This document shows positions 30,686 through 41,923 of a DNA stretch of 41,923 nucleotides, piece by piece. The notes below the pieces were generated by a model. That model was not told the DNA's origin. It made no database searches and saw nothing but the letters and a program-made list of their open reading frames with translations. Position numbers and translations under genes: made by a program. The DNA is from an uncultured Pelagibacteraceae bacterium (lineage in GTDB: Bacteria > Pseudomonadota > Alphaproteobacteria > Pelagibacterales > Pelagibacteraceae), in the NCBI GenBank assembly GCA_902615715.1, contig CACMQA010000006.1, forward strand, positions 1 to 41,923, read 5' to 3'. Numbering within the stretch: position 1 is the first letter of the stretch; each line of letters begins with the position of its first letter.

Positions 30686-30760
30686 TGGTGGGCGTGATAA
30701 GAATTGAACTTATGACCTCTACGATGTCAACGTAGCGTTCTACCACTGAACTACACGCCC
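30686..30760 (-). tRNA. tRNA-Val, anticodon GAC
   Basis: A 75-nt cloverleaf with encoded CCA. All stems pair perfectly: acceptor GGGCGTG/CACGCCC, D stem GTTC/GAAC, anticodon stem CTACG/CGTAG with loop TTGACAT (anticodon at 30726-30728 on the plus strand), and T stem ATAAG/CTTAT. It marks the edge of the variable region. The upstream glycosyltransferase gene runs ten bases into it, and 90 bp separate it from 5S rRNA. Confidence 0.97.
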
Positions 30761-31539: not shown

Positions 31540-32425
31540 AGGATTTTATTGTTTTTTTTAGGCCATCACTAAGCTTAATTTTTGGTTGCCAATTAAAATA
31601 TTTTTTAACTTTTTTAATTGAGGGATATAAATTCATAATTTCATCCTTTCTCATTTTAATAGATCCTAGTTCTGGATTACCTGAATTTGTAATAGTTTTA
31701 ATTTTTTTAATTACATCTTTTACATAAATAGGTTTGCCACTGCCAACATTGAAAATTTCACATCTAATTTTTTTAAGCTGCAAAATTTTTTTAATTAAAT
31801 CAACGAAATCTTTAATATAGATAAAATCTCTTTTTTGAACACCAGATGTACATTTAAAACTTTTATTTTTAAGGCATGAGTCAATCGTTTGAGGGATCAA
31901 TCTATTTAACTTTTGTTTTGGCCCGTACACTTGGTAAGGTCGCAAAATTATATATGGAATTTTATATTCTTTATTAATTTTTTCTAAATATTTTGACGCT
32001 TTTAATTTTGATGATCCATACCAACTTTTAGGATTACATTTTCTTATTTCTTGTTGAGGTGATTTTAAATCTCCATACTCCAAACTGCTTCCAATTTGAA
32101 TAAAAGTTTGAATTTCTTTTAATTTAAAAATATCTATTAAATTTTTTGATCCAACATAATGATATAGGTCATTTTCTTTTTTTTTCGAATGATCGATATA
32201 ACCACTGAGATTTATTACGTGATCAAAATTTTTTGATAATCTTTTTTTTAAATCTTTTTTATTAATTATGTTACAAAATATATATTTTACATTTTTTACT
32301 TTTCTATCGCTTTTGGGGTTATTTTTAGATAGAGAGTACAAAAAGTATTTTTTTAAGGATAGATTTTTTAATACGTGATATCCGATAAAGCCGGTGCCAC
32401 CTACAACTAGAATTTTTTCTTTCAC
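31526..32425 (-). CDS. NAD-dependent epimerase/reductase, probably acting on a CDP-keto-sugar
   Basis: A 299-residue extended SDR protein: GGTGFIG (residues 9-15) binds NAD(P), IGSSLEYG is the catalytic Ser region, and Tyr136-Gly-Ser-Ser-Lys140 is the YxxxK pair. RPYQVYGPKQKLNRLIPQ and VQKRDFIYIKDFVDLI are typical of sugar-nucleotide members. It follows rfbF with a 4-bp overlap, the place held by the final 4-reductase or epimerase in CDP-abequose/paratose-type clusters. Because rfbH (3-dehydrase) is missing from this cluster, its product is more likely a CDP-6-deoxyhexose than a 3,6-dideoxyhexose. Confidence 0.82.
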   Translation of the reverse strand: MKEKILVVGGTGFIGYHVLKNLSLKKYFLYSLSKNNPKSDRKVKNVKYIFCNIINKKDLKKRLSKNFDHVINLSGYIDHSKKKENDLYHYVGSKNLIDIFKLKEIQTFIQIGSSLEYGDLKSPQQEIRKCNPKSWYGSSKLKASKYLEKINKEYKIPYIILRPYQVYGPKQKLNRLIPQTIDSCLKNKSFKCTSGVQKRDFIYIKDFVDLIKKILQLKKIRCEIFNVGSGKPIYVKDVIKKIKTITNSGNPELGSIKMRKDEIMNLYPSIKKVKKYFNWQPKIKLSDGLKKTIKSYDER

Positions 32426-33108
32426 TTGTATATTTTTCTCTTAATAGCTTGTTCTAAAATTTCCTTATCTCTAATTGTGTCCACACATTGCCAAAAACCA
32501 AAATGTTTATAAGCACCAAGTTTTTTTAACTTACTAAGTTTTTCGAGCGGATATTGTTCAAGCACAGTTTGCTTGCCTTTGATAAATTTAATAATTTCTG
32601 GTTCCATTACAAAAAAACCCCCATTAATCCAACCAGCATCTAATTTCGATTTTTCCTTAAAATATTTTACTGTATTTTTTGAAACTTTAATTCCTCCAAA
32701 ACGTGCGGGCGGCCTAACTGCTGTTAAAGTTGCCATATATTTATTTTTTTTATGAAAACTAAGCAATTTTTTTAAATTTACATCACAAACACCATCTCCA
32801 TAGGTCAACATAAAAGATCCTTGAATATATTTTTTTAAAAGCTTTATTCTTCCTCCAGTCATTGAATTAATGCCAGTATTTACAATTTTTATATTCAAAT
32901 TACGCATATTTTTTTTAAAATAATCTTGAATAATTTTACTTTTATATCCTCCTGCAATTAAAAAGTCGTTAAAACCATATTTCAAATAATGATTAATTAT
33001 TCTTACGATGATTGGTATTTTAACTATTTTTACCATCGGTTTTGGGATGAGCTTTGTGTATTCAGATAATCTTGATCCCTTGCCGCCAGCTAATATAATT
33101 ACTTTCAC
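32422..33108 (-). CDS. rfbF: Glucose-1-phosphate cytidylyltransferase
   Basis: Makes CDP-glucose from CTP and glucose-1-phosphate. LAGGKGSRLSEYTKLIPKPM at the N-terminus is the nucleotidyltransferase signature. The RfbF-specific MTGGRIKLLKKYI, LTYGDGVCDVN (YGDG at 103-106), LTAVRPPARFGG and DAGWINGGFFVMEPE, as well as FGFWQCVDTIRDK near the end, match CDP-glucose pyrophosphorylases. At 228 residues it is about 30 shorter than the Salmonella enzyme, with the loss spread over loops. It overlaps rfbG by 4 bp. Confidence 0.94.
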   Translation of the reverse strand: MKVIILAGGKGSRLSEYTKLIPKPMVKIVKIPIIVRIINHYLKYGFNDFLIAGGYKSKIIQDYFKKNMRNLNIKIVNTGINSMTGGRIKLLKKYIQGSFMLTYGDGVCDVNLKKLLSFHKKNKYMATLTAVRPPARFGGIKVSKNTVKYFKEKSKLDAGWINGGFFVMEPEIIKFIKGKQTVLEQYPLEKLSKLKKLGAYKHFGFWQCVDTIRDKEILEQAIKRKIYK

Positions 33109-34166
33109 AATTTTCTCTCAAATTCCTGTATTTGTTTCGATGTAAAATTTACCATATTTTTTTTTTTGTAATACATTCTATACCACTCTGCGGTCATCTT
33201 AATTGTTTCATTAAATGATAATTTGTTTGTCCAGTTTAATTTTTTTTTAGCTTTAGTAGAATTAAGTTTTAAAAGTTTAGACTCACGAAACTTCTTATTT
33301 GTATTAATATTCCATTTAAAATTTGGTAAAAATTCATACATTTCGTTCAAAACATCAATTACTCTTTTATTTTGAAAATTTTTTGGACCAAAATTAAATA
33401 CTTCTCCATGATTATTTTTATTATTTTTTAAGTTTTTTGCTAATATTAGGTAACCTTTTAATACTTCTAGTACATGTTGCCATGGTCTTGTGGAGTTTGG
33501 GCTTCTTATTGTTACTGTTTTATTTTTCGACCACGACTTTAAGCAATCTGGTATTACTCTATAATCGGACCAATCTCCTCCTCCAATTACGTTTCCTGCC
33601 CTTGCCACCCCGAGTCTTAAATTTTTTTTATTTTTATAAAAACTCTTCACGTATGATTGAATTATAAACTCAGCACAACCTTTTGAAGCACTATAAGGAT
33701 CGAAGCCACCGAGTAGATCGGTTTCTCTGTAACCTCTTAAAATTTCTAAATTTTTATAACTTTTATCACTTGTGATAATAACTACGTTACATCTTTTTTT
33801 TAAAAATTTTACACTTTCTAAGACATTACAAGTACCTATAGCATTTGACGTAAATGTATTAACAGGATCATCATAAGACTTCTTAACTAATGGTTGAGCA
33901 GCTAAATGAAATAAAAAGTCTGGTTTAAAATTATTAATAGTTTTTTTTAATTTAGCTAGATCTCTAATGTCTATTCTTTTATCTATTATATTTTTTCTAA
34001 GACTTAAGGCTTCAAACAAAGATGGTTTTGTTGGAATATCTTTAGAAACTCCACAAATTCTGGCATTTAATTGTAGCAACCAAAAAGTTAACCAAGAACC
34101 CTTGAAGCCAGTATGCCCAGTAATAAGCACCTTTTTATTTTTAAATATTTTATAAAAATCTCTCAT
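33105..34166 (-). CDS. rfbG: CDP-glucose 4,6-dehydratase
   Basis: Makes CDP-4-keto-6-deoxyglucose. A 353-residue SDR with GHTGFKGSWL (Rossmann loop, about residues 17-26), HLAAQPLVKKSYDDPVNTF, the catalytic ITSDKSYKN and DPYSASKGCAE (YxxxK), RAGNVIGGGDWSDYRVIPD and TRPWQHVLEVLKGYL, all standard RfbG wording. It is encoded directly upstream of rfbF, reversing the usual rfbF-rfbG order, with a 4-bp overlap. Downstream enzymes decide which 6-deoxysugar is formed. Confidence 0.95.
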   Translation of the reverse strand: MRDFYKIFKNKKVLITGHTGFKGSWLTFWLLQLNARICGVSKDIPTKPSLFEALSLRKNIIDKRIDIRDLAKLKKTINNFKPDFLFHLAAQPLVKKSYDDPVNTFTSNAIGTCNVLESVKFLKKRCNVVIITSDKSYKNLEILRGYRETDLLGGFDPYSASKGCAEFIIQSYVKSFYKNKKNLRLGVARAGNVIGGGDWSDYRVIPDCLKSWSKNKTVTIRSPNSTRPWQHVLEVLKGYLILAKNLKNNKNNHGEVFNFGPKNFQNKRVIDVLNEMYEFLPNFKWNINTNKKFRESKLLKLNSTKAKKKLNWTNKLSFNETIKMTAEWYRMYYKKKNMVNFTSKQIQEFERKL

Positions 34167-34169
34167 AAT

Positions 34170-35483
34170 TTAATAAATATATTTTTTATAAATTTTTGAA
34201 TTTGAATTAAATATCAATAATTTGTTTTTCTCGATTTTTTTGTATTTAAACAAATTATCTTTAATTTTTATTGTGTTTAAATATTTCCAAATTTTTTTTG
34301 AATATGATTCTAATACTGGTTTTTCACAAATGTGAAAGACCTCAAGATTTCTTTCCAGTGCTTCAATTATAGAACCAGTAGGTCCTATAAATACTGAGAA
34401 ATTATTTTTATTCTTTTTCTTATAAATCTTTTTGGCAATCGTTTTTTTTAGTAATTCTATGAGTTTAATGTGCTTTTTTGAAGAAATACAACTTGGATGA
34501 TTCCGTATTTCAAAATTTGAAAAATCTGTTTTTTTATATTCTATAAGTTCTTCAAACGAATTGATAATTTTTTTATGATCAAAAATAGTGATTGGTAAAA
34601 AAATCTTATTTTTCATACTTAATTGAACTTTTTTTTTAAATCTTGCTGATGGAAAAATCTTAATTTCATTTTTCTTCCAGCCTAGATGGGTTACAAGCGA
34701 ATATTTTTGAGACAAACTATTAGCGATAAGTTTTTTTGGATGTCCAGGTCTTTTTGCAAGATTCGATGGTAAACCAATAGGGAATGAATGTATGTACCCA
34801 ACTGTTTCAATCTGCTTGCCTTTTTCACTCGTTTTTTTAAAAATTGCATTTTGATAAGGCTGACCCTCGTAAGGCATAATTATTTTTTTTACTTCATTAA
34901 TATATTTGCCAAAATCATGATAAATATAATTTGCTAATGTTGAATAGTGGGAAAACTCTTGATTTAGAAATTTTAACTTTTTTTTATTTTTGAAAAAATT
35001 GATGAAAATATTTTTATAAAGTACTAAGCTTAATTGCTTCTTTTCATGAACAATAACTATATTACTTGAAATTTTTTTTGGTAATACATTATCTAAATAT
35101 ATTATGTACCACATTACATCTAGACAGTTTTTTGAAGATACATTTAGATGTTTATCGTAAAATTCACCATTATTATTAAAATCTTTTAGATAACCCCAAT
35201 TTACGATGATAGTTTTATAATTTTTAAAATTTATTGGGGTAATAGTTGAATATCCTCCTGACTTTAAAAGTCTAATTAAATCATTTATTGTCGCGTAGAT
35301 ATAAATTTTTAAAGACTCTATTTTATTGAAAAAAAAAAATAATCTTGAATTTCCTTTTGTGGGAGCAAAAGGACATAGATAAAAATAACCTAACAAAGAA
35401 AACTCTAATTCTGAAAATTTTTTTAATTTGAAAAAAAATTTAACCGAATTTAAAAGATTTTTTTGTAATACCTCTATTTTCAT
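34170..35483 (-). CDS. Uncharacterised surface-carbohydrate biosynthesis protein, possible GT-B glycosyltransferase
   Basis: A 437-residue soluble, Lys/Phe/Ile-rich protein that I do not recognise with certainty. Visible features are MPYEGQPYQNAIFK (about 203-216), GYIHSFPIGLP (229-239), a run resembling a GT-B linker, NHPSC (328-332) and GPTGSIIEALERN (367-379). A His-Pro followed by a Gly/Ser/Thr loop and then a Glu helix is the pattern of nucleotide-sugar binding in many GT-B capsule enzymes. The YEGQP stretch recalls surface carbohydrate proteins of the O-antigen loci of Leptospira. Position inside a tight operon (4-bp overlap upstream, 3-bp gap downstream) supports a role in the same glycan. 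Confidence 0.6.
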   Translation of the reverse strand: MKIEVLQKNLLNSVKFFFKLKKFSELEFSLLGYFYLCPFAPTKGNSRLFFFFNKIESLKIYIYATINDLIRLLKSGGYSTITPINFKNYKTIIVNWGYLKDFNNNGEFYDKHLNVSSKNCLDVMWYIIYLDNVLPKKISSNIVIVHEKKQLSLVLYKNIFINFFKNKKKLKFLNQEFSHYSTLANYIYHDFGKYINEVKKIIMPYEGQPYQNAIFKKTSEKGKQIETVGYIHSFPIGLPSNLAKRPGHPKKLIANSLSQKYSLVTHLGWKKNEIKIFPSARFKKKVQLSMKNKIFLPITIFDHKKIINSFEELIEYKKTDFSNFEIRNHPSCISSKKHIKLIELLKKTIAKKIYKKKNKNNFSVFIGPTGSIIEALERNLEVFHICEKPVLESYSKKIWKYLNTIKIKDNLFKYKKIEKNKLLIFNSNSKIYKKYIY

Positions 35484-36202
35484 TCCCCGCCTGCAATAGT
35501 AATAGTCTCATTAGAAATGTAAGAATTTTTTTCAGACGCTAGAAAGAAAATCATATCAGTAATCTCATTTATTTTTGCCGCTCTTTTTATTGGAATTAAA
35601 TTAATTCTTTTATTTAAATTCTTATTTTTAATTTTTTTATGGATTTTTGTTTTTACAAATCCAACACGTAAAACATTGCTCAAAAGATTATACTGCGTAA
35701 GTTTTTTTATAAATGATGGACTAAATTCTAATAGATGTTTAGAGAGAGAATAATTAAAAGTATTCTCTCCACCTCCATATTTCACGCCAATGCTACTAAC
35801 ATGTAACATTCTTCCAAATTTTTTCTCTTTCATATTCTTTAACAAACTTTTTTGAATCAATATTGGAATTAAAGAATTTATTTGAAGAGAATTTATCAAG
35901 GGAATTAAACTTGTTTTTTGGTAACTGATATTATCGATATATCCTATTAAATTTACGAACGATAAAATGTTAAATTTTTTAATCTTTTTAAAAAACAAAT
36001 TAATTGCGTTTCTTTTTTTAAAATTTGCTGGAATTAAAAATAACTCTTTTGAATATATTTTTTTTAATTTCTTTAAACTATTATTGTTAGTATTGAAATG
36101 AGCGATAACTTTCCATCCTTTTGACAAAAACTTAGATGTAGTTTCTATTCCTATGTCCGAACTTCCACCGAGAATAAGTATTGTTTTATTTTTTTCTTTC
36201 AT
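35480..36202 (-). CDS. Short-chain dehydrogenase/reductase
   Basis: A classical SDR of 240 residues: GGSSDIG (12-18) for NAD(P), NLIG in place of the usual NNAG, catalytic Ser around 136-137 in HVSSIG, and Tyr151-Ser-Leu-Ser-Lys155. The C-terminal FFLASEKNSYISNETITIAGG is standard for FabG-like enzymes. The substrate is unknown. It lies between the radical SAM gene and the unknown 437-residue protein, each with a 4-bp overlap, and may reduce a keto group in the sugar or ulosonic acid made by the cluster. Confidence 0.87.
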   Translation of the reverse strand: MKEKNKTILILGGSSDIGIETTSKFLSKGWKVIAHFNTNNNSLKKLKKIYSKELFLIPANFKKRNAINLFFKKIKKFNILSFVNLIGYIDNISYQKTSLIPLINSLQINSLIPILIQKSLLKNMKEKKFGRMLHVSSIGVKYGGGENTFNYSLSKHLLEFSPSFIKKLTQYNLLSNVLRVGFVKTKIHKKIKNKNLNKRINLIPIKRAAKINEITDMIFFLASEKNSYISNETITIAGGE

Positions 36203-37086
36203 AAATTTCTAAAATAAGATGAGTTTTTTTTTCCCATAAATGTTCCCTCAACGTCGCACAAATTGCATGGAGAAAATTCTCTGTTAGAGTTTACAAGTTT
36301 ATTTCTAATAGTCATAGCTTTAGAACTAAACCAAATATCAATTAATTTTTTTGTATTAAGGTTTCCGAGAATAATTTTTTTACCCCAATCATGAGGACAG
36401 ATTAAAACATCTCCCTGATAATCTAAAAAAAAAGTGTAAGCAGGTATATAACATGGTTTTTTAAGTGGCTCAGTTAAAGATTTAATTTTATATTCTGCGT
36501 TTTCCATAGTCCCAGATCTATTACTTAAGGTAATACCAAAATCTTCACTTTCAGATAAATATCTATGTCTAACAATATATTGTTGAGTGGTTAAATTAGA
36601 GTCTTTACAAAGATTTTCTAAATCATTAGCTTCTTTTTTACCATCATAAGCGCTTATTAAAATCTTACTTAATCCTTTTGAAAATAATTCTTTTAAACGG
36701 TTCGCATTGAGGACATCACCATTTGTTACCATTTCAATATTACAATCAGGCAGTTTTTTTCTTGCCATATCAATTAAATTATAAATATTTTTATCTAGCA
36801 AAGGTTCTACGAATCCGCTGTATCTAATTGTTCCTTTGTAATTTAATGATTTAAGTTCCTCACACATTTTTGCATGAAGTTCATTTGATATGAACTCTTT
36901 TTTATCAATAAATTCTGGGGCACTTCTTGGACAAAAAGAACATTTTCTATTGCAAGTCCCGGACTCACTTATTTCTATCTCCGTTGGTAATGGCAGATCT
37001 TTATTTTCATATTTTATAAATTGTAATCTATCCTCAACAGTTTTAGATTTATTTTTAATATTTGGATCTATAAATTTTTTATTCAT
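36199..37086 (-). CDS. Radical SAM protein with SPASM-like C-terminus
   Basis: A 295-residue radical SAM enzyme. EISESGTCNRKCSFCPRSAP holds the CxxxCxxC cluster motif (Cys45, Cys49, Cys52). The barrel continues with YSGFVEPLLDKNIYNLI and MVTNGDVLN, and the C-terminal end has ICPHDWGKKIILGNLN and SPCNLCDVEGTFMG, the cysteine layout of SPASM/twitch auxiliary cluster domains. Such enzymes occur in glycan loci, where they may dehydrate, epimerise or deoxygenate a sugar; the sequence does not say which. It overlaps the KdsB-like gene by 4 bp and the SDR gene by 4 bp. Confidence 0.88.
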   Translation of the reverse strand: MNKKFIDPNIKNKSKTVEDRLQFIKYENKDLPLPTEIEISESGTCNRKCSFCPRSAPEFIDKKEFISNELHAKMCEELKSLNYKGTIRYSGFVEPLLDKNIYNLIDMARKKLPDCNIEMVTNGDVLNANRLKELFSKGLSKILISAYDGKKEANDLENLCKDSNLTTQQYIVRHRYLSESEDFGITLSNRSGTMENAEYKIKSLTEPLKKPCYIPAYTFFLDYQGDVLICPHDWGKKIILGNLNTKKLIDIWFSSKAMTIRNKLVNSNREFSPCNLCDVEGTFMGKKNSSYFRNL

Positions 37087-37811
37087 CTTTTCAAAATTTT
37101 CTCAACTTTTCTTAAATCCTTGAATTCATCAACAGCAATTGTATTAGCCTTAAGTTTTATCATTTTTACTTTAAAACCTAAATCAAAAAACCTTAAAATT
37201 TCAATATCTTCAATTTTCTCTACTTCTCCCTTTCTTTTATAATTCATAAATTTATAAAGTTCTCGTTTGTTAAAGGCATAAATACAAACTTGTTTAAGAT
37301 ATTTAATCTTATCTTTTTTATTTTTTGATGATGGAACTACAGCTCTCGAAATATATATAAGTTCATTAAACTTATTTAAAACTACCTTGGGAATATTTCT
37401 GCTGAACGGGTCTTCTTTTTTTGTAATCTCTGAAAAACCACATATAATATATTTAGGATATTTCTTTTTCGCTGCAATAATTTTTTTGATATCCTTAGGG
37501 CTCACAAGCGGTTCATCTCCTTGAACATTAATAAAAATATTTGATTTAACTTTTTTAGAAGCTTGAGCAACTCTATCAGTGCCAGTTAAGCATTTAGTTG
37601 AGGTCATTATAACGTTATAGCTGTTTTCTAAAACTTTTTTCTTTATTTTTTGTGAGTCTGTTGCAATATATAAATTCTCTGACCCAACTACTTTTGAACA
37701 CTTTTCTGCAACATGAATTATCAATTCCTTTCCACAAATCTTAGCTAGAGGTTTCCCAGGCAATCTTTTTGAATTAAACCTTGCAGGAATTATAATAGAA
37801 ATTTTAGTCAT
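37083..37811 (-). CDS. kdsB: CMP-ulosonate synthetase, KdsB-like
   Basis: A 242-residue cytidylyltransferase. IIPARFNSKRLPGKPLAKI, IATDSQKI, TGTDRVAQA and FINVQGDEPLV match 3-deoxy-manno-octulosonate cytidylyltransferase. Later positions diverge: YISRAVVPSS replaces the usual SRAxIPY stretch, and IEDIEILRFFDLGFKV replaces the common LEQLRALENG form. It may therefore activate a related ulosonic acid rather than Kdo, as reported for 8-amino-Kdo in some bacteria. Three bases separate it from the aldolase gene, which could supply its substrate. The symbol marks the family. Confidence 0.8.
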   Translation of the reverse strand: MTKISIIIPARFNSKRLPGKPLAKICGKELIIHVAEKCSKVVGSENLYIATDSQKIKKKVLENSYNVIMTSTKCLTGTDRVAQASKKVKSNIFINVQGDEPLVSPKDIKKIIAAKKKYPKYIICGFSEITKKEDPFSRNIPKVVLNKFNELIYISRAVVPSSKNKKDKIKYLKQVCIYAFNKRELYKFMNYKRKGEVEKIEDIEILRFFDLGFKVKMIKLKANTIAVDEFKDLRKVEKILKR

Positions 37812-37814
37812 ATT

Positions 37815-39428
37815 TTATTTGTAAATTTTTAAATTGTATTTTGTTGGAGTGATTGAATATAAGCCCAATTTTTTAAATCTTTTTTTTATAAGGTTAAAAA
37901 TTAATTGAGTCTCATCGTTTTTGGTGTCATCAATATTAAATCCATCAAAACCCGCTAAATAAATTTTTTGAGCTTTGCCAGCTATTGCAATTGCAAAAGA
38001 ATAGCTTATAGCTAGAGAATTAGGTATTATACAATAATTTTTTTTTATCTTTATTGATTTATTTAAATCGACTGAAATTCCGAAATCTTTTATATTTTTT
38101 TTTTTTATTTTTATTTTTTCTGTGATTGTTTTAGGCAACATCGAAAATGGAATAGCTAATTTAGTTCTATTTTCATAAATTCCAATATCAGATAAAATTC
38201 TAAATGGGTGGCAAGCTGTTCTTAAATTGATAAAACTCTCTTTAATATTTTTATTTGTGTTTAGACTAATCACAAATAATTTATTTTTTTTAACAAATTT
38301 TTCGATTTTTATACTGTGAGAATTTGCCGTTTTACCAGCTCCAATTATAAGAATATCTCTGCCAGCAATATCTGAAAATGGATTCCAATTACCTTTTGCT
38401 CTGCCAGAATAGATATTTGTTGGACTGATAAGTTTAAAAGGATTAAATTTTCTGCTATCTGTTAATTTTAGATTATTGAGAATATTTGAGTAAGATTTTT
38501 TCGGGTACCTTTTATCAGTTAAAATTTCTTGAATGTATGTAGGATGAATTTTATTTTTAGCTGCAAATTTGTAATATTTATTTGTACCCCAGTTGTACTT
38601 TTTTTTTAAAGCATGAAAATGATTTTTGATTAAAGTTTTTACAGACTTAATTTTACTTTTTTTACTTTTATCATTTTTACCGATATGTTTAATTAGTTCT
38701 TCTGTTCTTGTGTTACCAGGACCTCTCCCCATGCCTGAAACAGTGCTATCTAACCATTGAATACCAGAATTTTTTCCTTTTAAAGTATTTTTCAAAGCTA
38801 AATTAAGATTGTCGTGGGCGTGGATACCTATTGCACCTTTCCAATACCTGCTAAGCAATTTTTTGATAGTTTCAACATTTTTTGGTTTCAGACATCCTAG
38901 ACTGTCAGCAAAATACAAAATATCAAAATTTTTTTTTGATAAGAATTTTGAAACACTGAGTATTTCTTTATTTTTAAGTTCCGATATTTGCATTAAATTT
39001 ACAGCTACTAATACATCCTTTTCCTTTAACCAATTTATAATGGGTCCAATCTTAAATATTTCTTGATGATGGCAAGCAATTCTTACAAATTTAATCTTGC
39101 TTTTTTTTAAATTTGGAAAGGTTTCGTTACATATTTTAGATAAAATTAAATTATTTTTGAAAAAGTCCCCTGCATTTATCATTACGCCAATACTTAGATT
39201 TTTTGGAATACTTAATCTTTTAATAAATTTTTCGCTAGTGAATGCTGTCTCTCCTCTTAACTTATCTTTATTTAAAAATCTAAAACCAAGTTCAACATAT
39301 TTTATGTCTAGTAATGACATGCAATTTAAATAATCGTTTATAAGTGAAACGTTAAATTTCCAATTATTATGATATCCTCCGTCCCGCAAAGTACAATCAA
39401 TGTGTTTTATCTCATTATTATTAGCCAT
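37815..39428 (-). CDS. Two-domain protein: DRE-TIM pyruvate-type aldolase fused to an MptE/DUF115-like domain
   Basis: A 537-residue protein. Residues 1-270 form an HMG-CoA-lyase-like barrel: HIDCTLRDGGYHNNW with Arg15 and Asp16, metal-binding His203-Ala-His205 in GIHAHDN, and STVSGMGRGPGNTRTEELI. These match 4-hydroxy-2-oxovalerate aldolases, so catalytic residues are intact. A helical part (about 270-350) follows. Residues 356-537 form a second, Rossmann-like domain: GRDILIIGAGKTANSH, FVISLN, then IPNSLAISYSFAIAIAGK and IYLAGFDGF, the pattern of MptE-like/DUF115 domains found in Maf nonulosonic acid transferases. Pairing with a CMP-ulosonate synthetase suggests formation, and perhaps transfer, of a 2-keto-3-deoxy sugar acid. 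The function is inferred. Confidence 0.72.
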   Translation of the reverse strand: MANNNEIKHIDCTLRDGGYHNNWKFNVSLINDYLNCMSLLDIKYVELGFRFLNKDKLRGETAFTSEKFIKRLSIPKNLSIGVMINAGDFFKNNLILSKICNETFPNLKKSKIKFVRIACHHQEIFKIGPIINWLKEKDVLVAVNLMQISELKNKEILSVSKFLSKKNFDILYFADSLGCLKPKNVETIKKLLSRYWKGAIGIHAHDNLNLALKNTLKGKNSGIQWLDSTVSGMGRGPGNTRTEELIKHIGKNDKSKKSKIKSVKTLIKNHFHALKKKYNWGTNKYYKFAAKNKIHPTYIQEILTDKRYPKKSYSNILNNLKLTDSRKFNPFKLISPTNIYSGRAKGNWNPFSDIAGRDILIIGAGKTANSHSIKIEKFVKKNKLFVISLNTNKNIKESFINLRTACHPFRILSDIGIYENRTKLAIPFSMLPKTITEKIKIKKKNIKDFGISVDLNKSIKIKKNYCIIPNSLAISYSFAIAIAGKAQKIYLAGFDGFNIDDTKNDETQLIFNLIKKRFKKLGLYSITPTKYNLKIYK

Positions 39429-39435
39429 AGTTTAA

Positions 39436-40608
39436 TCAATTTAAATTTATTTTTATGTTATCAATAATTGACATTTCATTTGACATAGGGTGTTTAATAA
39501 ATTTCTCCATAAAAATCTCGTACTTGTTATCATTAATTTCTAAATTGAAATCTGTTGAATGAATATATTTATCATTATCCGAGTCTATATTTAATAATTT
39601 AGCGTCAAGAATTCTTGCATTACTGTGCACCCTATAATCGTCGTACGACTTAATAATTTCATTTGATGTCAAAAATATAATTGGTTTTTTAAATATAACG
39701 GCATATGAAATTGCTGTAGAGGTATGTGCAAGTACACAGTTACAATTTTTAACAAGGTCAATAGTTTTTGAATTAAATATTTCTCTTCCTTTAAAAAAAT
39801 TATCATAATCTGAAATATCAGCTCTTGGATGAGCTGCTACAACAATTTTACTATCAAATTTTTTTTCTATTTTTCTAAAAGTCATTGCCAATGAAGGAAA
39901 ATATTTTTTTGATGTAACTTGTGGTTTTTCACCTCTATAGAACTGTGCTGGATGAAATGGTAGATTTTGATCTAAAAATACAAAATAATTATTAAGGTTA
40001 ATTTTACTAAAAGAATAGTTGAAAGTATTTTCATAATCTGAGCTATGTGTAAAAATTTTTTTTACAGCCTTTTTAGCATAATCATTATCAACTCCTTTTG
40101 ATCCAGATATAAAAATATAATCATATTTGATTTTTTGAAAAATTCTATCTCTCAAACGAGTATTTAAAATTGAATAGATTTTTTTTAAAAATAAAAGTGG
40201 ATTTTTCAATAATCTTAAAAATCTCAAAATTTTTTCTTTATTAGTTCTTATAATATTTGGAACTAAACCAAATTGAAAATAAACTAACTTTATATCAATG
40301 CTTTTTAAAAACTTTTTAAAATAGAATGAATCTTTGTTTCTTGCTGAAATAAAGTCGAAAGCATAGCTAAAACTTTTTTTATTTTTGGCCAAAAAATCCT
40401 CAAACTCTTTAAAGTTTTTTACTTTGACATAATTCTTATATTTAAATATTTTTTGATCTTTTAAGGTTAAATTAAATATTTTTTTATTTAAATATGGTGC
40501 TAAATCTAATACCAGGACATCGTAAGCTTTACTCAATTTTTCAACAAAAAATCTATCATAATCTCTTTTAGAAAATCCTGTATCAGTTAAAATCATTATT
40601 TTTCTCAC
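39436..40608 (-). CDS. Putative GT-B-like surface polysaccharide glycosyltransferase
   Basis: A 390-residue soluble protein of unknown family. The N-terminal half starts KIMILTDTGFSKRDYDRFF with alternating hydrophobic strands; the C-terminal half has VVAAHPRAD (about 257-264), then CVLAHTSTAISYAVIFKKPI (291-310) and FLTSNE. His-Pro-Arg, a Thr/Ser loop and a Pro-Ile strand are typical of CDP-glycerol transferase-like and capsule GT-B enzymes at the donor site. It may transfer the CMP- or CDP-activated sugar of this cluster. Seven bases separate it from the aldolase gene. Confidence 0.6.
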   Translation of the reverse strand: MRKIMILTDTGFSKRDYDRFFVEKLSKAYDVLVLDLAPYLNKKIFNLTLKDQKIFKYKNYVKVKNFKEFEDFLAKNKKSFSYAFDFISARNKDSFYFKKFLKSIDIKLVYFQFGLVPNIIRTNKEKILRFLRLLKNPLLFLKKIYSILNTRLRDRIFQKIKYDYIFISGSKGVDNDYAKKAVKKIFTHSSDYENTFNYSFSKINLNNYFVFLDQNLPFHPAQFYRGEKPQVTSKKYFPSLAMTFRKIEKKFDSKIVVAAHPRADISDYDNFFKGREIFNSKTIDLVKNCNCVLAHTSTAISYAVIFKKPIIFLTSNEIIKSYDDYRVHSNARILDAKLLNIDSDNDKYIHSTDFNLEINDNKYEIFMEKFIKHPMSNEMSIIDNIKINLN

Positions 40609-40636: not shown

Positions 40637-41629
40637 TTAAATATTATAATTATCTGGTTTATAATTTTTAGTATTTTCGGAATTAGCAAACCACTCTATA
40701 GTTTTTTTTAAACCCAGCACTAACCCTTTTTTATTTACGTATTTTGGTTTCCAATTTAATAATTTTTTAGCTTTTAAATTTTTTGATTGAAGTTTTAGAA
40801 CTTCACTTTTTTTTGGCCTTACCCTTTTTTTATCTAAAATAATTTTTACATTTACTGATAATATTTTTGATATTGTGTTTACTAAGTATTTAATTGAATA
40901 ATCGAAACCAGTTCCAAGGTTTATTACCTCTCCGTTATTTTTTTTATTTATTGATTTTATAAAACCATTAATTGTGTCATCAATGTAGGTAAGATCTCTA
41001 GTTGTTTCAATATTGCCAAGTTTAACAAAGTTTTTTCCAGATAAAATTTGAGTAATTATAGTTGGTATAACTGCTCTTGCTGATTGTCTTGGACCATAAG
41101 TGTTAAAAGGCCTTAGAACAGTAACTGGCAAATTATAGGTTTTATAAAAAGAAATAGCTAGTTGGTCTGCAGCAACTTTTGATGATGCATAAGGAGACTG
41201 TGAATTTATTGGATGTCTCTCATCTATTGGGGTGTAAATTGGAGTGCCGTAAACCTCGCTGGTTGAAGTATGAATAATTTTTTTTATCTTCAAATCTTTT
41301 GAGGCTTGTAAAATATTTAAAGTTCCTATCACATTAGTATCGTAATATGATCTTGGTGACTTATACGAATAAGGTATTCCTATTAGTGCTGCTAAATTAA
41401 TCACGACATCGCAACCTTTTAAACTTTCTTTTATAGAATTCTCATCTCTTATATCGCCAGAGATAAAATCAATTTTTTTTTTTATTTTTTCTTCTAAAGT
41501 ATCTAGCCAACCTAAAGAGTTAAAAGAATTATATAAAACAAATGCCCTTACTTTATGATTTGATTTAATAAGTCTTTCGACCAAGTGGGAACCTATAAAG
41601 CCTTCCGCTCCAGTTACTAAAATTTTCAT
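40637..41629 (-). CDS. legB: Nucleotide-sugar 4,6-dehydratase, LegB-like
   Basis: A 330-residue extended SDR. TGAEGFIGSHLVE (Rossmann loop Gly7, Gly10, Gly13), RAFVLYNSFNSLGWLDTLE, INLAALIGIPYSYKSPRSY, HTSTSEVYGTP, Tyr147-Ala-Ser-Ser-Lys151, and RPFNTYGPRQSARAVIPTII reproduce the wording of LegB-type dehydratases, which open the legionaminic acid pathway from an activated GlcNAc. The aminotransferase (LegC) and synthase (LegI/NeuB) that normally follow are absent here, so the 4-keto product may go elsewhere or those genes may lie beyond the window. It is separated from the regulator by 5 bp and from the next gene by 28 bp. Confidence 0.85.
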   Translation of the reverse strand: MKILVTGAEGFIGSHLVERLIKSNHKVRAFVLYNSFNSLGWLDTLEEKIKKKIDFISGDIRDENSIKESLKGCDVVINLAALIGIPYSYKSPRSYYDTNVIGTLNILQASKDLKIKKIIHTSTSEVYGTPIYTPIDERHPINSQSPYASSKVAADQLAISFYKTYNLPVTVLRPFNTYGPRQSARAVIPTIITQILSGKNFVKLGNIETTRDLTYIDDTINGFIKSINKKNNGEVINLGTGFDYSIKYLVNTISKILSVNVKIILDKKRVRPKKSEVLKLQSKNLKAKKLLNWKPKYVNKKGLVLGLKKTIEWFANSENTKNYKPDNYNI

Positions 41630-41634
41630 TAGAA

Positions 41635-41923
41635 TTATTTGCTATCTTTTTTTAAATTTTCGTACTCTTCGCTAATCCTCTTCATGAAACGTATAGTAAT
41701 TCTTGTTTTTTCCGAGAAACCTTTTGGGGTCAAATAATACATATATCGAAGTTTATTTTTATTTTTTTTAAAATTTTTTACCTTTATCAATCCCTTTTTT
41801 TTCAAAGCATTTAAACAATAGTTTATTTTACCTAAGCTTAGATTCAAATTCTTTGCCATATCTCTCTGATTTTGATCAGGATTTTCTTGTATTTTTTTTA
41901 AAATTTTTAAATGTTCAGATTTA
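41635..41923 (-). CDS. MarR-type EPS-associated transcriptional regulator (5' end beyond window)
   Basis: The frame is open to the window edge with no start codon, so the N-terminus is missing; the ATG at 41859 lies inside the DNA-binding domain. Visible residues include ILKKIQENPDQNQRDMAKNL, LSLGKINYCLNALKKKGLI (recognition helix) and YYLTPKGFSEKTRITIRFMK, a winged helix-turn-helix matching the small MarR-like regulators found at the head of exopolysaccharide clusters (TIGR04176-type). It is the first visible gene of the minus-strand cluster and is 5 bp from legB, so it probably regulates its own operon. Confidence 0.82.
   Translation of the reverse strand, partial: KSEHLKILKKIQENPDQNQRDMAKNLNLSLGKINYCLNALKKKGLIKVKNFKKNKNKLRYMYYLTPKGFSEKTRITIRFMKRISEEYENLKKDSK

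Follow-up and report, generated by a model that had tools for sequence, protein, structure and literature searches.

How might a bacterium make and activate a surface sugar acid without a phosphoenolpyruvate (PEP)-dependent synthase? The question is raised by contig CACMQA010000006.1 (GenBank assembly GCA_902615715.1) of an uncultured Pelagibacteraceae bacterium, on which one gene encodes an aldolase barrel fused to a domain with the predicted fold of cytidine monophosphate (CMP)-sugar transferases and the next gene encodes a KdsB-type cytidylyltransferase. The window analysed here is the whole contig of 41,923 bases (C6 of a 1.06 Mb genome); sequence past position 41923 is not visible. KdsA and NeuB, the PEP-dependent ulosonate synthases, would hold the equivalent pathway position before the CMP-ulosonate synthetase and belong to a different enzyme family from the barrel. 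To our knowledge, wherever the biosynthesis of a CMP-activated ulosonic acid in bacteria is established, the synthase is a PEP-dependent enzyme of the KdsA/NeuB kind. We consider, with a probability of roughly 0.6, that the two genes form the core of a pathway to a surface sugar free of any PEP-dependent synthase, in which the predicted chemistry comprises an aldol reaction in the barrel, activation with cytidine triphosphate (CTP) and binding, with probable transfer, by the C-terminal domain. A ulosonic acid pathway had been proposed earlier for this DNA from its letters alone (the original prediction), and as a whole that interpretation is partly supported.

Domains of the fusion protein

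The fusion protein of 537 residues is encoded by an open reading frame (ORF) at 37815–39428 on the minus strand. It consists of a DRE-TIM (HMGL-like) aldolase barrel with a helical extension (approximately residues 1–338; 38414–39428, minus strand) and a C-terminal domain resembling Maf, MptE and glycosyltransferase family 42 (GT42) enzymes (residues 340–537; 37818–38411, minus strand). The ORF carries R15, D16, H203 and H205 and the motifs GAGKTANSH and IYLAGFDGF, just as the original prediction had read them, and PF00682 (HMGL-like) matches residues 7–254 with 74.6 bits against a curated cut-off of 29 (E = 1.1e-20). R15 corresponds to the catalytic arginine, and D16, H203 and H205 to the Asp and His-x-His metal ligands, of the DRE-TIM metallolyases. 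In an alignment of 52 sequences, made up of the window copy and 51 of 68 candidates, these four residues and N207 are unchanged in all 52, so that the motif cannot be put down to chance.

The nearest characterised proteins to a profile of the 52 barrels are the DmpG-type 4-hydroxy-2-oxovalerate aldolases (E = 4.5e-29 and 5.5e-29, the latter for 1nvm), whereas the acyl-CoA-using citramalate, isopropylmalate and homocitrate synthases reach 3.3e-17 at best. DmpG (1nvm, 8ih7) and the barrel have in common the TIM barrel, the Arg-Asp pair, the HxH metal site and a GMG.G.GN loop. The barrel differs from DmpG in its surface-sugar locus, in scoring 69.2 bits against the DmpG equivalog TIGR03217 (cut-off 286) and in having Tyr19 aligned with DmpG His21, which we take to be a catalytic residue; Tyr occupies this position in 51 of the 52 sequences and X in one. 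By the NCBI equivalog criterion the barrel is not a DmpG-type aldolase; by profile and fold, the DmpG-type enzymes are its nearest characterised group. The nearest solved relative, from the same barrel subfamily, is BVU_2661 from Bacteroides vulgatus (PDB entry 3dxi; phmmer E = 2.4e-39 over residues 7–321, Foldseek E = 5.8e-20), whose title, 'N-terminal domain of a putative aldolase', implies a second domain.

Relatives were collected as 99 distinct loci, namely the window, 26 found within the order and 72 contributed by a scan of GTDB species genomes, eight duplicates having been dropped; the scan covers the best 80 of 575 confirmed relatives and the 99 loci lean to close relatives and to Pelagibacterales. 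Counts over the 99 loci were made by six-frame translation. The motif HP.[YF].Q (H295, P296 and Q300 in the window) is present in 96 of them, the three misses being an X at the aromatic position, an HPMLLQ variant and a sequence that is cut off. It is absent from 3dxi, which has NIPQKEV and lacks the HP, and from two diverged fusions (G068 and G130), and may contribute part of an active site that differs from that of DmpG.

The C-terminal domain, which is found in 96 of the 99 loci, has no match to any Pfam family at E values up to 1, PF01973 included, and PF01973 itself has no match anywhere in the host genome at an E value of 0.001. AlphaFold2 predicted the structure with a pLDDT (predicted local distance difference test) score of 92.2 for the whole fusion and 95.7 for residues 340–537 alone. 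With the C-terminal model, Foldseek retrieved the pyrophosphokinase MptE (8sd5; E = 5.7e-5), Maf (5mu5; E = 1.7e-4) and SteA (E = 3.5e-4). Superposition by VIA-align gave Z scores of 13.9 for the flagellin nonulosonic acid transferase Maf (5mu5; 178 residues, 3.3 Å), 12.8 for MptE (8sd5; 165 residues) and 12.0 for CstII (170 residues, r.m.s.d. of 3.9 Å), with weaker values for SteA (11.9), Cst-I (11.7), thiamine pyrophosphokinase (9.3) and mammalian sialyltransferases (7.6–9.2). An hhalign comparison with 11 PF01973 domain sequences, a set in which L145 is possibly on the wrong strand, returned a probability of 88.5 (P = 2.7e-6), while none of the controls, nine alignments of unrelated families and 20 shuffles of the columns, exceeded 3 percent. 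The Maf-like fold anticipated in the original prediction, with structure prediction as its check, was therefore recovered, and the assignment is well supported. The domain shares this fold and a distant profile similarity with Maf and MptE and is unlike them in having no PF01973 hit, in comprising only about 200 residues and in being joined to an aldolase. On the strength of the model, transfer of a CMP-activated sugar would be a candidate role.

Within the domain, N390, P469 and G493 are unchanged in 52 of 52 sequences and D495 in 51 of 52; in a GxGP-like loop, the window has K366 where proline stands in 40 of the 52. The GT42 sialyltransferases CstII and Cst-I share the fold, and a HMMER alignment, weak at E = 0.13 for the whole sequence and 0.96 for the stretch, places the segment YALA...LAGFDGY against a CstII stretch ending at tyrosines 156 and 162. 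In those columns of the weak alignment the family has Tyr in 37 and Phe in 12 of 52 sequences at Tyr156, and Arg in 41 and Lys in four of 52 at Tyr162. When 61 KdsB-linked fusions are compared with 17 PseF-linked ones, without correction for descent, the greatest differences fall in columns 364 and 470, which belong to the C-terminal domain and would fit as part of a CMP-sugar pocket.

Two other descriptions of the domain were rejected. An identity as an NAD-binding Rossmann domain like that of the short-chain dehydrogenases/reductases (SDRs) would not agree with hhalign probabilities of at most 3 percent for EPIM, SDR, LegB and CDP-glucose dehydratase against 88.5 for PF01973. Nor is the domain widespread on its own: it occurs in one of 299 genomes of a phylum sample (the host) and in 30 of 297 in the order, where it is unfused only as a 97-residue fragment at a contig end.

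The KdsB-type partner and its linkage to the fusion

The partner gene encodes a KdsB-type CMP-ulosonate synthetase of 242 residues (37083–37811, minus strand). It starts three bases past the fusion ORF, the stop codon of the fusion being 37812–37814, and its reading as a KdsB-like cytidylyltransferase at this spacing was correct: it scores 269.2 bits against NF009905 (KdsB subfamily; cut-off 255), also passes the cut-off of NF003952 and has KpsU (1gq9) as its best solved relative, matched over the whole length (E = 1.3e-38). Despite its full-length likeness to KdsB and KpsU, which are CMP-3-deoxy-manno-octulosonate (CMP-Kdo) synthetases, the partner falls below the equivalog cut-offs of TIGR00466 (134.9 versus 155.2) and NF003948 (151.8 versus 281) and below the cut-off of NF003950, and has a signature of its own, QVCIY (Q174 and C176). 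Gln is found at position 174 in 58 and Cys at position 176 in 57 of 63 aligned partners, and six-frame translation shows QVC, or a motif close to it, in 58 of the 64 KdsB-type partners that lie downstream. KpsU and the host KdsB have HVGIY, and a Bacillus KdsB encoded beside KdsA has Phe at the His position. The His of HVGIY in Escherichia coli KdsB touches Kdo; since QVCIY replaces it, Kdo is unlikely to be the substrate of the partner and a different acid is likely. A young duplicate of the host KdsB was rejected as the source of the partner: the two are 33 percent identical, and scores ranked across the order fall from 170 to 142 bits with nothing between. KAYH stands in place of QVC in the KdsB-type genes of L076, L105 and L114.

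A cytidylyltransferase lies within 3 kb of the fusion, on either side and either strand, in 88 of the 99 loci; 69 are KdsB-type, including L133, where KdsB is inside the same protein, and 19 are PseF-type, two of which are weak matches (56 and 89 bits). If the gene must lie downstream, share the strand of the fusion and be no more than 3 kb away, 82 of 99 loci remain, and in 67 of these the gap is at most 150 bases. The cytidylyltransferase cluster has an offset of +1 from the fusion in 60 and −1 in five of 95 loci, a count that is ORF-based and in which some G+C-rich loci are misread. A HAD phosphatase is encoded near the fusion in 54 of the 99 loci. KdsA does not belong to the module; a homologue occurs in one of the 99 loci (L127), while a NeuB homologue occurs in 13, consistent with other sugars being made within the same islands.

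The strongest single pieces of evidence come from two loci. In L133 (contig CACCYT010000029.1, uncultured Bacteroidetes), a single polypeptide of 592 residues joins the barrel (24–276) to KdsB (351–588); it is without the C-terminal domain and carries both HP.Y.Q and QVCIY. In L127 (Bacillus sp. ISL-41), genes for KdsB and KdsA are paired some 3 kb upstream of a distinct set of fusion, KdsB and HAD genes.

Among 297 genomes of the order, 24 have the fusion and a QVC-type partner (defined by at least 170 bits), six the fusion alone, seven the partner alone and 260 neither (Fisher P = 9.8e-24); counting the contig-edge fragments L222 and L223 as present changes the table to 26/4/7/260. Among the six fusion-only genomes, G002 and G029 have a PseF-type gene next door, in G079 and G275 a contig edge cuts the partner to a fragment, and G068 and G130 have none nearby. 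Chance adjacency is ruled out by the 88 loci together with the Fisher test, and the expectation in the original prediction that the same fusion would be found near a cytidylyltransferase in other genomes is confirmed, the L133 polypeptide included. The module of two or three genes is thus a real, recurrent unit with a dedicated synthetase.

The fusion is present at full length in seven of a set of 61 near genomes that includes the host. Searches found it in 27 of 297 genomes of the order with the N-terminal 199 residues (30 with the C-terminal part) and, in the phylum sample of 299, in the host alone. The distribution is patchy, as expected for mobile surface loci. The best 80 relatives include Pseudomonas, Halomonas, Marinobacter, Idiomarina, Shewanella, Roseovarius, Bacillus, Prochlorococcus, a spirochaete and Omnitrophota. 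On a Leisingera plasmid, the gene order is aldolase catalytic domain-containing protein, 3-deoxy-manno-octulosonate cytidylyltransferase and HAD family hydrolase.

The Pelagibacteraceae-type loci L058 and L215 have flanking genes that agree in length and order, with the fusion in one and a QVC-type KdsB plus a gene for 236 residues in the other, and in both the variable part precedes the same B12/radical SAM gene. In L047 (G189:C1), the fusion and the KdsB-type gene both contain in-frame stops, as if they had decayed together. An HpcH/HpaI-type aldolase is encoded in L066 (PF03328) and, by similarity, in L070, L076, L105, L108 and L219; among the seven partner-only genomes, G169 has one in its locus. 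Such an enzyme may represent a separate way of making a CMP-activated acid through a pyruvate aldolase.

Proposed pathway and competing explanations

In the pathway that we favour, the metal-dependent barrel would condense pyruvate with a sugar aldehyde to give a 2-keto-3-deoxy acid. If the aldehyde were phosphorylated, the HAD phosphatase of the loci that have one would strip the phosphate. The KdsB-type enzyme, or elsewhere the PseF-type enzyme, is predicted from its family to use CTP to give the CMP-activated acid, and the occurrence of either type as partner suggests acids of different length. Judged by its fold, the C-terminal domain would bind the CMP-sugar and most likely hand it on to an acceptor glycan in the manner of Maf and CstII. 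The aldol step, which is reversible, would be driven towards product as phosphate is lost and CTP consumed. A broader reading, more tentative and somewhat short of an even chance, is that the module defines a PEP-independent class of ulosonate pathways that has spread horizontally among marine and other bacteria, in which a metal-dependent pyruvate aldolase fused to a CMP-ulosonate transferase is served by a dedicated synthetase and the surface sugar differs both from Kdo and from the nonulosonic acids made by NeuB.

Several observations weigh against the favoured pathway. CstII Tyr156 and Tyr162, which we take to be its phosphate-contacting tyrosines, are placed by the weak alignment at F497 and K503 of the window copy, and MptE, SteA and thiamine pyrophosphokinase have the same fold and are not glycosyltransferases. 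A cytidylyltransferase is missing within 3 kb in 11 of the 99 loci, of which three have a contig end 1.4 kb away or less and three (L058, L059 and L126) are mutually 91–97 percent identical. The diverged fusions of G068 and G130 have no cytidylyltransferase in the surrounding 14.5 and 11 kb, respectively. In seven of the 31 genomes of the order with a QVC-type partner, no fusion was found, and no barrel within 6.6–15 kb. HpcH/HpaI, a pyruvate-aldolase family, shares five fusion loci, so that either this enzyme or the fusion may act otherwise there. Finally, the window pair has no HAD gene beside it and is accompanied by radical SAM/SPASM and SDR genes instead.

The explanation that survives best besides the favoured one keeps the same pathway and denies the C-terminal domain a transferase role; the domain would act as sensor or scaffold, binding the CMP-sugar and regulating the aldolase. 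It is rare for a fusion to join the opening and final steps of a pathway, and LeuA-type DRE-TIM enzymes have regulatory C-terminal domains; the absence, by the weak alignment, of both CstII tyrosines from the window copy points the same way, as does the order sample, in which a transferase might have been expected to occur alone and the contig-edge fragment is the only unfused copy. Against this stand the fold, which belongs to enzymes, CMP-sugar transferases included, and the invariance of N390, P469 and G493. We regard a sensor role as unlikely, with an appreciable chance of being right.

It is also doubtful that the barrel is something other than a biosynthetic pyruvate aldolase, acting on another 2-oxo acid, on an acyl-CoA or as a lyase and supplying a branched or acyl substituent, with the acid of the partner coming from elsewhere. 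The superfamily spans aldolases, Claisen synthases, lyases and carboxylases, and the Tyr in place of DmpG His21, the five loci with HpcH/HpaI aldolases and the seven partner genomes in which no fusion was found would all suit such a change of chemistry. The nearest characterised enzymes by profile and fold are, however, DmpG-type aldolases, and the aldolase–KdsB polypeptide and the two partner types fit a common 2-keto-3-deoxy product.

An ordinary capsule Kdo locus, in which the partner would be a KpsU-like extra CMP-Kdo synthetase working on Kdo from the host KdsA while the fusion makes an unrelated sugar, is improbable: the partner does exceed the NF009905 cut-off with KpsU as its best solved relative, and the host does possess KdsA, but the signature is unlike those of KpsU and the host KdsB, 98 of the 99 loci are without KdsA, PseF-type enzymes replace KdsB-type ones in 19 loci and L133 combines aldolase and KdsB in one polypeptide.

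If the favoured pathway is correct, a pyruvate aldolase working with a dedicated synthetase and a transferase-like domain would be a second solution to the making of CMP-ulosonates, and genes that are named merely 'aldolase catalytic domain-containing protein' would be explained. SAR11, which is among the most abundant bacteria of the ocean, carries the module, as do the cultured genera Idiomarina, Halomonas, Marinobacter and Pseudomonas. The pathway would point to a new surface sugar, possibly met by phages and grazers, and would be a place to look for new sugar-acid aldolases. Among the best matches listed in searches of open-access PubMed Central (PMC) text, none concerned the fusion, a slight indication that it has gone undescribed; ordinary kdsA and kdsB are described in passages of PMC6008488.

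The gene run in the window

The fusion and KdsB-type genes belong to a run of 11 closely spaced genes, all on the minus strand, that extends from 41629 down to 30751. The run looks like a surface-polysaccharide island, with transhydrogenase genes adjoining. No KdsA homologue was found anywhere in the window by six-frame search. The host encodes KdsA on C7, KdsB on C2 and NeuB on both C8 and C3, and therefore probably already makes other ulosonic acids.

Upstream of the fusion are genes for a protein of 390 residues (39436–40608, minus strand) and a LegB-like 4,6-dehydratase (40637–41629, minus strand; NCBIfam 449.9 bits, slightly below the cut-off of 475). The contig ends close behind the latter gene and the run is perhaps cut there. 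Downstream, the partner gene overlaps by four bases with that for a radical SAM/SPASM protein of 295 residues (36199–37086, minus strand), which is followed by that for an SDR reductase of 240 residues, identified by Pfam (35480–36202, minus strand). This pair adjoins both fusion and partner in L036, L038, L042, L043, L056 and L057 and adjoins the partner without a fusion in L214; it perhaps carries out a radical modification of the sugar.

The remainder of the run comprises genes for a protein of 437 residues (34170–35483, minus strand), a CDP-glucose 4,6-dehydratase (33105–34166, minus strand; 468.4 bits versus a cut-off of 278.45), a glucose-1-phosphate cytidylyltransferase-like protein (32422–33108, minus strand; 247.1 bits, below the cut-off of 300.25) and, as the last two, an epimerase-like protein and a GT2 glycosyltransferase, ending at 30751 (minus strand). 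The dehydratase and cytidylyltransferase-like genes are likely, by their family matches, to constitute a CDP-6-deoxyhexose branch. The proteins encoded at 34170–35483 and 39436–40608 have no match in Pfam, NCBIfam or PDB searches; the former has relatives in eight other fusion loci.

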